Shown: one piece after another, positions 1,403 through 17,137 of the stretch
Layout: each line of letters starts with the position of its first letter
How positions within the stretch are numbered: the first letter of the stretch is position 1
Origin: a virus
Reading direction: 5' to 3' (one strand)
Virus record (IMG/VR): IMGVR_UViG_3300013004_000240
Coordinates: 1 to 20,265 of that record
Length of the DNA: 20,265 nt
Position numbers and translations under genes: made by a program
Notes under the pieces: generated by a model
Told to the model about the DNA's origin: nothing
What the model saw: the letters and a program-made list of their open reading frames with translations, nothing else
The model's database searches: none

Positions 1403-2692
1403 TTATTGTGTGTATGATAGAGATATCAACATATTGTCTACACTTAGAATTGGTTTTACCACAACTTGAATATTAAGTGTAGAAGAATTTTCAGTATTAT
1501 TTACAGAATTACATATAATTTGTGTTTTAGTTGTATCCAAATATGGTGCAAACGGATCTAGCGCAGTTTGAACTTCGGATATTACTTGATCTCTTGTAGT
1601 TTGATTATTAATATCAAATACATGTTTTAATCCTATTTGATTGATCACTTTTGTCAAATCTGCTCTCATTCGGGAAGGTCCAACTCTATCATCAGCCGTT
1701 ATGGTTGCCGTGCTTGCTGTTGCACCGACATAATCGGAACCAAGGAACTTTGGATTGTAATTTACAAAGAAATTTACCTTATTAGTTCTTAGCAAATTAC
1801 GTAAAGAACTTTCCCATGCTATTGGATCAATTACATTTCCATTTATAACAGTAGATCTGTCCAGACCCGCCACAGAAAGATAAGATTCATTTCTACTCTT
1901 TGATCTAGCAAAAAAACCAGCTACATCGTTTACATTTGAAATTGTGTATGTAATTTTTGAGTTTGCCTGCAAAGTACTTACATCTAGATCAGTTATAGTT
2001 TTTAAACCTCTTACATTAAAGACTCTATTTGCTACAACAGTTCCACTTACAAATGAGGTATTTCCAAATAAAGATGCAAAATTTGCCATAGTGTATCCGC
2101 TACCAGTAATACCATCTGAACCGGGTATTGAAGGAAATACACCCAATGTATATGGTTGATCTATCAATAATTGAGCAATTGAAAAATCATGATTTGTGTC
2201 AACAAGAAGATCCATGTAGTTATTATTATCTGTAACATATTCACCTAATCCCGAAGCTTGTCCTGCAATCACCAGTGTACCGCCATATGCAAGATAATTT
2301 ATTGCATGTAAAAATTGATTTCCAATTTCTTTTGCAGTAATGTTTATACCATCAATATTAGTAAAAAAGCCAAAGGTTCCACCAGCTCCCGTCGCAGAAA
2401 TCAAACACGAAGTTACACCAGTCAATAAATTGAGATCACCAACCAAATCATATGGATTGTTATATACAAGATATGTGTCTGTAGTCAATCCTTTTGGTGG
2501 ATTTGCTAGAGATGTTCTTGCGTATATAAGCCATCCAAATAGGCCACCCGGATCTTTATTGGTTGCTCCATTAAATCCAGCAAAAGAAACTCCCGCATAA
2601 CCTGTACCGAGTCTCATTCCTGCTACAAATGGAAAGGTTAAATTTTCTTTAATATATTGACTTGAATTTACAAAAGAGCTTAGTGATGGCAT
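1403..2692 (-). CDS. 18: Contractile tail sheath protein gp18-like (short form)
   Basis: A 429-aa protein called tail sheath, the polymer that contracts around the tube to drive infection. Evidence is partly positional (between terminase gp17 and tube gp19) and partly sequence: FLHAINYLAYGGTLVIAG near residues 128-145, as in the sheath N-terminal domain, and a C-terminal half with WESSLRNLLRTNKVNFFVNY, RMRADLTKVINQIGLKHVFDINNQTTRDQV and a final β-rich VVVKPILSVDNMLISLSY, matching the conserved sheath C-terminal domain. It is much shorter than T4 gp18 (659 aa), so outer protrusion domains are probably missing. The usual N-terminal SPGV-x-V-x-E-x-D motif is not visible. A TATAAATA late promoter and AAAGGGA ribosome site precede the start. 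Confidence 0.8.
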   Translation of the reverse strand: MPSLSSFVNSSQYIKENLTFPFVAGMRLGTGYAGVSFAGFNGATNKDPGGLFGWLIYARTSLANPPKGLTTDTYLVYNNPYDLVGDLNLLTGVTSCLISATGAGGTFGFFTNIDGINITAKEIGNQFLHAINYLAYGGTLVIAGQASGLGEYVTDNNNYMDLLVDTNHDFSIAQLLIDQPYTLGVFPSIPGSDGITGSGYTMANFASLFGNTSFVSGTVVANRVFNVRGLKTITDLDVSTLQANSKITYTISNVNDVAGFFARSKSRNESYLSVAGLDRSTVINGNVIDPIAWESSLRNLLRTNKVNFFVNYNPKFLGSDYVGATASTATITADDRVGPSRMRADLTKVINQIGLKHVFDINNQTTRDQVISEVQTALDPFAPYLDTTKTQIICNSVNNTENSSTLNIQVVVKPILSVDNMLISLSYTQ

Positions 2693-2726: not shown

Positions 2727-4379
2727 TTATGCAGGATACCAAACTGCGCCCCCATTTACAAATTCTTTGCCATCGTCATCATCATTTTGATTAAAATCTA
2801 ACAAAATATTATCATCTTCGGGTTTTTTTGCTTCTTCGTAATTTAATTTTGCACTTTCAATCAAGTCTGCATAATATTCTTGTCTTGTTAGCCATGAAAA
2901 AAATATTAAACACATGACTAAATCATCATTATGTCCTTCTTCAGCTTTATATGTATTAGATTTTGCGACAAATGTGGTCATTTCTTGGATTATACGTTCA
3001 TCATTTATTAAAATTTTATTTTCTTCAACCAATCTTTTAAATATTGCACAACCAATTTTTTTAGTTTGCATGGTTGTCCGCAATCCCATTTCACTTTTTC
3101 CACTAGCAAAGCCTTGAGACAAAATTTGACCTTTTCTGCCCATTATTTTTGTCATTAAAAGATTTTCATATTCCAAATCATTATAAAGTATGGATGATAC
3201 TTGCCCACCGATATCATTTGTTTCGACTAAAACATATGCATTGTTATATTTTTCTGCAACAGTTTTAATTATATTTGGAAAATTAAAAGGACTTATCGTA
3301 TTATTTCTAAAAGATGCTACATCTTTGTATGGAGCAGATGTTCCGTCTACAACCACAAATGCAGAATAATCATTTCCCTGTCCTCTGGATACATCAGCAA
3401 GTAAAAAGTAAATATTGTCTTTTTTTGGTTGTTCAAATATTTTAAGCCCTGAATCATCTTGTTCTATTGGTTCTTCTGGTGCCAAAACACTCAATTTTGA
3501 AGTGCTTATTAAAGTGTTTGAAGAACCAAGAAAACTACAACCATATTCTTGCTCAAATTGTTCCGAACTTGTATTAGCAATCTGTTCTGCTGCCCAATTA
3601 TCATCTCTCAACTTTGGACTTCCGGGACTTATTGGAGTTTCTCTCCAACTAACATCAACTGGAATAAATTTATTTTTTAACTTATGACCTTCTTGGCGAT
3701 TAGCATCAACCCAAAGTTTATGAAAATGATTCATGCCATTTGGGGTAGAAACAATAATAAGTTTAGTTGTAGTACCAGCAGAAATTGTTGGATATGTAGA
3801 TGTATAAAATTCTTCGGCTACGTGGCTAGGCAAGAAGGCGTACTCGTCAAGCAGGAGTAGATTATAGGAGCCGCCACGGATGGCTGTAGACGATGTTGCA
3901 TCGCACATGACCCTAGACCCGTTTTCAAGCTTAAAGCTCGTCTTATTCCATTCTACAACTCCTTGTTGGAGAAAATGTGGTAAATTTTCATAAGCAAGTT
4001 GAAGTTTTGAAAATAATTCTTCTTTTGCTGTCTTAAGTCTGTTTGCCAGAATAGCAACGTTAACACTTTGATTAAAACAAATATAATGGCATATGTAACT
4101 GGTTACACAGGTAGATTTACCACATTGACGAGGCCATTTAGAAATTGTAAATCTATTATCATGAATTGCATTTATAAATTTTTGTTGATATTTGTATAAA
4201 TTAAACGGTACAACCCCTTTATCAAGAGTTTTTACTTTTACATATTTTTCACAAAAGTATACAGGATCTTTTGCACATTTTATATATTCTTCAAGCTGTT
4301 CTTTTGTATATTGTAATGAGATTCCCGGTAATTTTAAATTTGGATTATTCCGGTAACCCTGTTGATTGTTTTTTATCAT
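2727..4379 (-). CDS. 17: Terminase large subunit gp17 (packaging ATPase/nuclease)
   Basis: A 550-aa packaging motor: an ATPase that pumps DNA through the portal and a nuclease that makes the headful cuts. Seen: Walker A RQCGKST at 84-90 (T4: SRQLGKTT), Walker B LLLLDE at 174-179 with catalytic Glu179, coupling motif STPNG at 211-215, and an RNase H-like nuclease with DVSRGQGNDY (Asp329, Asp337), Glu386 in VLVETND and GHNDDL (Asp485/486). All expected catalytic residues are present, and length is near T4 gp17 (610). The start overlaps the end of gp16 by 35 bases, suggesting coupling. Codons for about residues 147-189 are far more GC-rich than the rest of the gene (see findings). The C-terminus has an acidic QNDDDDGKE run. 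Confidence 0.97.
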   Translation of the reverse strand: MIKNNQQGYRNNPNLKLPGISLQYTKEQLEEYIKCAKDPVYFCEKYVKVKTLDKGVVPFNLYKYQQKFINAIHDNRFTISKWPRQCGKSTCVTSYICHYICFNQSVNVAILANRLKTAKEELFSKLQLAYENLPHFLQQGVVEWNKTSFKLENGSRVMCDATSSTAIRGGSYNLLLLDEYAFLPSHVAEEFYTSTYPTISAGTTTKLIIVSTPNGMNHFHKLWVDANRQEGHKLKNKFIPVDVSWRETPISPGSPKLRDDNWAAEQIANTSSEQFEQEYGCSFLGSSNTLISTSKLSVLAPEEPIEQDDSGLKIFEQPKKDNIYFLLADVSRGQGNDYSAFVVVDGTSAPYKDVASFRNNTISPFNFPNIIKTVAEKYNNAYVLVETNDIGGQVSSILYNDLEYENLLMTKIMGRKGQILSQGFASGKSEMGLRTTMQTKKIGCAIFKRLVEENKILINDERIIQEMTTFVAKSNTYKAEEGHNDDLVMCLIFFSWLTRQEYYADLIESAKLNYEEAKKPEDDNILLDFNQNDDDDGKEFVNGGAVWYPA

Positions 4380-4809
4380 TATTCACAACCTCAGCTTCCA
4401 TATAATTTTTTTCAGTGCTTCTTTCTTTATTCAAAATATTTTGAAGATCTTTTGTAGATCCAACAAACACTGAATTGTTTGTTTGTTTTACTTCAACTTT
4501 TTGATTTGTTGTATCTTTTACTTTTTTATGCACATCAATAACATTATTATTTAAATCTGCCATCGTTTTTAACAAAATTGCAACAACTTCAAATGCTCTG
4601 GGGCTATCTGATTCCGTTGCAACCTTTAAAGCACTTTCTAAAGCAACATTTCCCGTGCCAATTAAATTTTTTAAATTTGATTGTACTAGTTCATAGTCTT
4701 TTTGTAAACTTTGAATATCAAAGGTACCTCCAGAACCAGAATTTTGAATGGTTTTATCATTAGTTGGTTCTATTGAAAACAATTTTGCTAAATTTTGATT
4801 TATATTCAT
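4345..4809 (-). CDS. 16: Terminase small subunit gp16
   Basis: A 154-aa regulatory subunit that forms rings, recognises DNA ends or pac-like sites and stimulates gp17. Seen: a central helical segment YELVQSNLKNLIGTGNVALE...ATESDSPRAFEVVAILLKTMADLNN (residues about 39-90), which carries the family's (S/H)PRA-(F/Y)-EV pattern, followed by a Lys-rich helix and NNSVFVGSTKDLQNIL near 111-126, typical of T4-like gp16. Its last 35 bases overlap gp17. It starts 2 bases after gp15 and has no obvious Shine-Dalgarno, so it is probably translated by coupling. Confidence 0.88.
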   Translation of the reverse strand: MNINQNLAKLFSIEPTNDKTIQNSGSGGTFDIQSLQKDYELVQSNLKNLIGTGNVALESALKVATESDSPRAFEVVAILLKTMADLNNNVIDVHKKVKDTTNQKVEVKQTNNSVFVGSTKDLQNILNKERSTEKNYMEAEVVNNDKKQSTGLPE

Positions 4810-13975: not shown

Positions 13976-14395
13976 ATGGCATATAAAACAAAATTTACAC
14001 CAACAAATCCCAAAAAATATATAGGAGATCATGCAAAAATTAATTGCAGATCCCTCTGGGAAAGAAACATTTGTAAATTTTGTGATCAAAATGAATCAAT
14101 TGTAAAATGGTCTTTCGAAGAAATTACAATTCCATATTTCAGTCCATTAGATAAAAAAATTCACAACTACTATCCAGATTTTGTAATTCAATTTAAAAAT
14201 AAAAATGGTTTGCAAACATGGATGGTGGAAGTAAAACCAAAAAAACAAACACTGTTAAAAGAAAACGCATCTAAAAAAGAAAAAATATCATGGATAATAA
14301 ACACTGCAAAATGGGAAGCTGCAAAAAATTATTGCAATAAAAATAACATGGTATTCAAAATAATAACTGAAAAGGAAATATTTGCTAATGACTAA
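13976..14395 (+). CDS. 4: Head completion nuclease gp4
   Basis: A 139-aa homologue of T4 gp4 (gp50.65; about 150 aa), a head-completion protein with a nuclease fold that acts after packaging and before tail joining. Seen: MAYKTKFTPTNPKKYIGDHAKI (split: MAYKTKFTPTNPKKY, IGDHAKI) versus T4 MAYSGKWVPKNISKYRGD, then RSLWERNICKFCDQN, and a PD-(D/E)-x-K core: P67-D68, E85-V-K87 with PKK after it. The helix INTAKWEAAKNYC matches T4 VNTDKWKAAQSL. Start is certain from this N-terminal alignment. It is divergent from gp48 and overlaps the next gene by 8 bases. Confidence 0.93.
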   Translation: MAYKTKFTPTNPKKYIGDHAKINCRSLWERNICKFCDQNESIVKWSFEEITIPYFSPLDKKIHNYYPDFVIQFKNKNGLQTWMVEVKPKKQTLLKENASKKEKISWIINTAKWEAAKNYCNKNNMVFKIITEKEIFAND

Positions 14396-16254: not shown

Positions 16255-16280
16255 AAAAAGGCCCCTTTCGGGGCCTTTTT
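16255..16280. terminator. Bidirectional terminator between assembly operon and gp32
   Basis: An 11-bp perfect inverted repeat, AAAAAGGCCCC (16255-16265) and GGGGCCTTTTT (16270-16280), with a TTTC loop. The GC stem flanked by A and T runs makes it a Rho-independent terminator for both convergent transcripts: the rightward operon and the leftward gp32 gene. Confidence 0.92.
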
Positions 16281-17137
16281 CAATCCTTCTCCATTTCGGA
16301 GAAATACTGTAGAGGATCCTTTTCCTCCACATCTTCCACAACTGAAGTCTCTTCAACATCATCCTCAATGTTCTTGCTTTCAGCAAACTGAGCACGAATG
16401 TCGTCACCGACAGACTTCTTAAATCGGGCATTCAATTCATCAAAGCTCTTAAACTGGCTCTTGTCGATAAATGGCTTGAGGGGATATTGCTTCTTCCAAA
16501 TTTCCTCAAGCTTCTTGTCGTCACCACCAAATAGCGGTGCAGGAGATGCAAATTCACTTCGGTCATAGTTAACATAACCACCGACGTTGCGAATCTTGAT
16601 CTTAAAATCTGCACCAGTCCAGAAGTTGAACGGATCTACTGCAACTTCATCTTGGAATTCTGGATGAGCAAGGCTCTGGATCTTCTGGAAGATCTTGGTA
16701 CCATACTGATAAAGGAAAACCTTTCCCTTGTTCTCTGGATTGGCAGGATCTTCGATGACCAAGATGTTGGAAATGTATGTCAGCTTACGCTTACGTTGCC
16801 GTGCAATGTTCTTGTCATCCTCAATACCACTATTCCACAGTTCCGTGTTTGCTGCACATACCGGGCACTTTTCACCGATGGTCGTGGGGCAGTTCTCATA
16901 GAACCAACCGCCCTTGCCCTTAAAAGTGTGACTATAGACTGCAACGAAAGGTGCATCCTCGCCATCAACTTCAGGAAGGAATCGGACAACCGCGTATCCG
17001 TTGCCAGCCTTATCGATACCCGGCTTCCATAGCCGTTCATCCTTATAGCCCTCCTTGGAGGTCATCTTATCAAGACGCTCTGTTAGGGCTGCGACTGAGT
17101 TCTTACTCTTCTTCTTAAAATCTGAAAAATTCGCCAT
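16280..17137 (-). CDS. 32: Single-stranded DNA-binding protein gp32
   Basis: A 285-aa homologue of T4 gp32 (301 aa), which coats single-stranded DNA in replication, recombination and repair and interacts with other replication proteins. Seen: N-terminal basic KKKSKNSVAALTERL (8-22), equivalent to the cooperativity region; WKPG...GYAVVRFLPEVDGEDAPFV at 37-65; zinc ligands H70, C83, C91, C94 (T4: H64, C77, C87, C90, same H-x12-C and C-x2-C spacing); an aromatic-rich OB-fold core (FLYQYGTKIFQKI, NVGGYVNYDRSEF); and an acidic C-terminal tail rich in Glu/Asp from about residue 258. Base composition is clearly more GC-rich than the flanking late genes. It has its own promoter and leader hairpin. 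Confidence 0.97.
   Translation of the reverse strand: MANFSDFKKKSKNSVAALTERLDKMTSKEGYKDERLWKPGIDKAGNGYAVVRFLPEVDGEDAPFVAVYSHTFKGKGGWFYENCPTTIGEKCPVCAANTELWNSGIEDDKNIARQRKRKLTYISNILVIEDPANPENKGKVFLYQYGTKIFQKIQSLAHPEFQDEVAVDPFNFWTGADFKIKIRNVGGYVNYDRSEFASPAPLFGGDDKKLEEIWKKQYPLKPFIDKSQFKSFDELNARFKKSVGDDIRAQFAESKNIEDDVEETSVVEDVEEKDPLQYFSEMEKD

Follow-up and report, generated by a model that had tools for sequence, protein, structure and literature searches.

A GC-rich block at the Walker B motif of a T4-like gp17 gene as a possible hotspot of short-tract exchange

GC-biased gene conversion in eukaryotes and bacteria leaves a recombining segment that is GC-richer than its surroundings; none of the papers found demonstrates this for phages. 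In T4-type phages, exon co-conversion accompanies intron homing or intron-less homing (td/I-TevI, SegF, SegG; reviewed in PMC2988022); action from other loci is known for the freestanding endonucleases of these phages (PMC2988022, PMC2993671). In fungal mitochondria, the exons of host genes that lie beside mobile introns show raised diversity (PMC5378118).

The gene analyzed here is the large terminase gene gp17 in a window of 20,265 nucleotides (the whole stretch of viral DNA studied) from an AT-rich lake phage. As in T4-type co-conversion, a short tract at an essential, invariant site would be copied between co-infecting phages, with conserved coding sequence as the target of endonucleases; the difference is that the footprint here extends over hundreds of phages in which no intron, intein or endonuclease gene resides, and that a GC excess is added to it. 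The split intein found in phages CE1 and JK32 and in loci L464 and L465 (see below) sits in the same gene and at the same codon, but the element is absent from the window's clade. The fungal introns offer a parallel in that a local coding footprint persists though intron presence and polymorphisms no longer match; there the footprint is raised within-species polymorphism, whereas here it is tracts and GC3 that diverged phages have in common. With GC-biased gene conversion the locus has in common that recombination signal and GC3 excess coincide, but its edges are sharp.

A preliminary description of the window had reported a 128-bp block of about 54% GC between flanks of 27-28%, with an intact frame encoding Walker B. 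Both statements were borne out: 69 of the 128 positions at 3815-3942 are G or C (53.9%) versus 26.7% at 3755-3814 and 28.2% at 3943-4020, and the motif reads LLLLDEYAF in an uninterrupted reading frame. The best-scoring GC segment of gp17 is 3815-3921 (57%). When GC3 was scanned along the gene, as that description had proposed, it was 0.62 in codons 146-188 and 0.15 in codons 1-100 plus 231-550. The observed 42-codon maximum was 26, while 5000 within-gene synonymous-codon shuffles reached a maximum of 23 (p<=2e-4). Among the genes of the 20 kb, the only other one of comparable GC3 is that for a gp32-like single-strand DNA-binding protein (16280-17137, minus strand, PF08804), with 0.48 throughout its length versus 0.11-0.26 in all remaining window genes. 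Coordinates of the features are given in Table 1.

Table 1. Features of the gp17 region and of the two further GC3 islands (window positions unless a locus is named)
Feature	Position	Strand	Basis or remark
gp17-like large terminase, T4-like, 550 aa, carrying the block	2727..4379	-	PHROG phrog_2, E 1.8e-59; tblastn to Kyanoviridae gp17, 49-51% identity
GC-rich core (codons 147-189), which includes D178 and E179 of Walker B	3815..3942	-	Composition, codon preference, ortholog-group GC3 scan
Tract of low synonymous divergence, codons 125-192, probable exchange hotspot	3804..4007	-	Common to pairs of otherwise saturated relatives; same place in independent marine set
DE/Y, between codons 179/180, counterpart of split-intein site DE/C	3842..3843	-	Uninterrupted here
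Three GACGA copies, possible protein-binding motif	3844..3942	3844 (-), 3889 (+), 3938 (-)	Suggestive only
gp16-like small terminase, control gene	4345..4809	-	phrog_445, E 1.7e-31; overdispersion 0.79-1.02, no hotspot signature
gp18-like tail sheath, control gene	1403..2692	-	phrog_23, E 3e-6; overdispersion 0.91-1.10, no hotspot signature
GuaC/IMPDH catalytic-loop region, second GC3 island	L357:16813-17844, residues 141-200	-	GC3 excess and synonymous-divergence variance
gp46-like recombination ATPase, C-terminal ATPase motifs, third GC3 island	L355:864-2582, residues 421-500	-	22 sequences only

Freshwater relatives of the window phage were retrieved from IMG/VR with patterns outside the block, giving 80 loci (L002-L081) at 79-88% protein identity. 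The further loci drawn by pattern (L082-L263) are skewed in favour of the block, so the main freshwater statements rest on L002-L081. GC3 was raised at gp17 codons 145-186 in nearly all of these 80 relatives, and the edges fell at the same places, close to codons 144/145 and 186/187. An ordinary AT-rich block was present in L067, L070 and L071, and also in L218 among the pattern-drawn loci; values were low in L075 and L078-L080. Among 53 ortholog groups of six related genomes, the gp17 block had the highest local GC3 excess (z 11.0; runner-up 6.1). The GC3 island is a family trait and is not private to the window phage.

The abrupt composition change in the window would be expected if the block had been imported once, and recently, from a GC-richer phage, or if the assembly were chimeric, and the preliminary description had named both. 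Because the island is common to most of the independently assembled relatives, which were drawn by patterns outside the block, either event is effectively excluded; the database search for a near-identical GC-rich block, which that description had also put forward, was run by blastn and returned no match among isolate phages. The block edges had further been taken as breakpoints, but the exchanged tracts (codons ~125-192, see below) are wider than the GC-rich core at 145-186. Since the tracts exceed the core and GC3 is ordinary in codons 125-144, a uniformly GC-rich donor fails to explain the edges. What remains of the earlier proposal is a local gene conversion and a tie to homing elements at this conserved site, which together are the best reading of the data, and not a one-off GC-rich import.

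Codon preferences in the block were strongly site-specific and comprised rare codons (ACG147, GTC157, TCG163, GCG166, CTA174) as well as AT-ending ones. The block holds 46 of the 502 sites, and 24 of the top 50 codon-preference sites fall in it (p 5e-15). At fully conserved residues the GC3 excess was 0.000 outside the block (n=224) versus +0.255 inside. Since conserved residues elsewhere are without GC3 excess, protein conservation does not explain the island, and codon optimality or accuracy was rejected on the same ground; ordinary codon optimization is ruled out because the preferred codons include rare ones. Selection on translation might still act if accurate or timed decoding of the segment favoured given codons. 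The segment is catalytic, and a mild GC3 rise occurs at Walker B and at the STPNG motif across T4-like gp17, but the comparison of conserved residues and the preference for ACG, TCG, GCG and CTA speak against this possibility, which moreover gives no reason for distant phages to have near-identical tracts; it seems very improbable. RNA structure, another option raised earlier, found no support, as folding was no better than in synonymous shuffles (mean z +0.13, both strands, 49 phages) and no Rfam family scored above threshold. An overlapping gene was also rejected, every alternative frame having stops in 22-49 of 49 phages.

Distant relatives are saturated at the synonymous sites of gp17. The exception is the surroundings of Walker B, where some distant pairs are near-identical over ~50-75 codons (codons 125-192 in the freshwater set and about 150-208 in the marine set). 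Variance across distant pairs, in a test with non-independent sequence pairs and without a formal null, was 1.4-1.9 times binomial only near codons 120-200 (freshwater) and 140-220 (marine), and ~1.0 elsewhere. Near Walker B 7-8% of distant pairs were nearly alike versus 0.1% expected. The neighbouring genes gp13, gp14, gp15, gp16, gp18 and gp19 lacked this signature, with variance ~1.0 and a highest single window of 1.24.

The marine set, independent of the freshwater one, consisted of 80 Kyanoviridae-like contigs, ~50% identical to the window protein. Its hotspot lay at the same place in gp17, with a peak at codons 160-199. In codons 155-205 synonymous divergence had almost no link to that of the remaining gene: first, values of 0.04-0.06 occurred at an amino-acid distance of ~0.2, where controls gave ~0.48; secondly, the standard deviation was 0.13-0.2 versus ~0.07 in controls. 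Patches of near-identity, with saturation outside, were found in L276/L295 (codons 156-205) and L323/L346 (codons 151-208). L276 agreed with the distant L295 rather than with L297, its near relative (23 versus 3 codons, p 5e-14), and the exchange tract conflicts with the relationship of the remaining gene. Close marine pairs can differ strongly in the block and distant ones can be nearly identical. These comparisons clearly point to recurrent short-tract exchange around Walker B in the marine relatives. A third, diverse set gave a weaker signal at the same place; in this set (L393-L463) the nuclease domain contains a second overdispersed site, codons 320-359.

Within the clade of the window phage itself, the tract occupies codons 125-192 in those distant freshwater pairs whose block has low divergence, while codons 101-124 and most of 193-240 are saturated. 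Inside the block the divergence of near pairs is 2-3 times slower, and no clear block replacement was seen between close freshwater relatives; this and the renewed saturation of the block at large distance count against exchange in this clade. In an IQ-TREE comparison of block and backbone, every gp17 window rejected the backbone tree, not the block alone. Given the surplus of local sharing and the GC3 excess in the same stretch, short-tract exchange in this clade is likely but not proven. The slow divergence of near pairs would also fit a functional DNA element in gp17, such as a packaging-initiation or protein-binding site under purifying selection on synonymous sites. The concentration of codon preference in the block, rare and AT-ending codons included, agrees with such an element, and GACGA(G) is the most over-represented motif; the three GACGA copies, perhaps part of the element, are spaced by 45 and 49 bp, and the 20 kb window holds only 15 copies in total. 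However, between distant freshwater phages the block is fully saturated (0.52-0.55), and because it saturates at large distance a fixed nucleotide constraint fits poorly. The block is ordinary and AT-rich in L067, L070, L071 and L218, the usual relation of likeness and distance can be reversed in marine pairs, and GACGA is absent from the top motifs of the marine set. A DNA element is considered unlikely.

Overdispersion is higher where the amino acids are more conserved (rho 0.52), and homology by itself may thus promote exchange at Walker B. If so, a near-invariant stretch (codons ~80-222) would keep enough DNA identity for relaxed recombination, and exchange would maintain the likeness, with no endonuclease involved. 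This would suit a clade without a homing element, and very active recombination has been predicted for T4-type phages (PMC2993671). Yet windows that start at codons 80-90 come close in conservation (0.964-0.967) and have a variance of only 1.01-1.09, the tracts form short patches inside the gene, not long one-sided swaps, and the GC excess is unexplained by homology alone. We regard this explanation as doubtful, if somewhat better placed than a DNA element.

Across gp17 windows, GC3 excess and variance were correlated (Spearman 0.59 freshwater, 0.40 marine, 0.42 diverse). The coefficient was 0.40-0.60 in four of five sets, and 0.35 (p 0.07) for gp46. GuaC/IMPDH and gp46, which had been picked beforehand as GC3 islands from a genome scan, were overdispersed where the scan had flagged them (variance 1.67 and 1.4-1.8, respectively); GuaC has an additional overdispersed stretch without GC excess. 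It is possible, if only tentatively proposed, that catalytic motifs in T4-like core genes (Walker B in gp17, the catalytic loop in GuaC/IMPDH, the C-terminal ATPase motifs in gp46) are narrow recombination hotspots of fixed position, at which diverged phages continue to share patches of ~200 bp and which biased repair enriches locally in GC. A strongly two-part genome composition was observed in L358 (G001, ~81-97 kb) and L364 (G004), where ~15 kb of small genes with GC3 0.5-0.9 lie in otherwise AT-rich relatives.

Escherichia phage vB_EcoM_CE1, Shigella phage JK32 and two phages of IMG/VR (loci L267, L268, L392/L464 and L465) have a gp17 that is interrupted at DE/C, after the Glu of Walker B and before the Cys that follows, by apparent intein halves; between these lies a gene for a TnsA-like/endonuclease-I-like (PD-(D/E)XK) nuclease. 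The insertions in gp17 are putative inteins, to judge by sequence and position. The DE/C site corresponds to window codons 179/180 and to the marine hotspot centre (codon ~180). The intein-bearing gp17s are of the Straboviridae type, with ~35-40% protein identity. A search of viral contigs for the endonuclease of the Walker B intein gave 10 relatives, of which only those of L464 and L465, both T4-like and Straboviridae-type, lie in gp17. Other gp17 inteins are at Walker A in Escherichia phage 241 and phage fENko-Kae01, and near codon 279 in Providencia phage PSTRCR_127 (L269), where the apparent intein is at QEH/C and a SegE-type GIY-YIG gene lies between the gp17 halves.

Neither gp17 nor its flanks contained an intein, intron or endonuclease gene in ~260 freshwater contigs, in which the gp16-17 and 17-18 spacing is uniform, and none was found within gp17 in the 80 marine contigs. 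The residue after DE is Tyr in the window gp17 and Phe in the marine set, and neither Tyr180 nor the marine Phe can serve an intein at this site. Because no element is present and Tyr180 is unsuited to an intein, we infer an endonuclease trigger in the window's clade rather than observe one. The scar of a homing element suggested in the preliminary description is thus favoured by the split intein and endonuclease at the same codon in Straboviridae, while the freshwater contigs themselves count against it.

Taken together, the block may best be explained as the core, enriched in GC, of a hotspot at gp17 Walker B where short tracts are exchanged repeatedly, with homing endonucleases as the presumed trigger; we give this reading a probability of about 0.45. 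During co-infection, a break in the DNA of one phage, at Walker B or close to it, would be repaired from the co-infecting phage, so that about 150-230 bp are copied and the remaining gene is unchanged. Homing endonucleases directed at the invariant site, whether freestanding or associated with an intein or intron, might make the breaks. A homing trigger is proposed because the split intein and the PD-(D/E)XK-type endonuclease gene lie at the exact codon in Straboviridae; as the cause, homing endonucleases are leading but unproven. GC enrichment may be a by-product of GC-biased repair or of a circulating allele. The sharp GC edges at 144/145 and 186/187 count against biased repair, since a smooth bias would predict otherwise.

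If this is true, exchange driven by homing or endonucleases acts on essential genes of phage lineages between which recombination has otherwise ceased, and a local GC3 island together with excess variance of synonymous divergence would be a simple signature by which to find these sites in phages from metagenomes. Endonuclease targets could then be mapped from the GC islands of AT-rich phages, even after loss of the element. The Walker B segment of terL, a common phage marker, may depart from the history of its gene.

Three further observations were made. In L199 (1371-2808, minus strand), gp17 lacks codons 93-156 and the frame is broken at the join, by either an assembly error or a true deletion. 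A gp4-like head-closure protein in the window (13976-14395, plus strand) matches the TnsA-like nuclease fold PF08722, a family also matched by the gp17 intein endonuclease. Directly downstream of gp17 in marine loci (e.g. L315, L340, L396), a four-cysteine, zinc-ribbon-like protein of ~80-100 aa with no Pfam match is encoded, and it was present in 97 of ~150 such loci.
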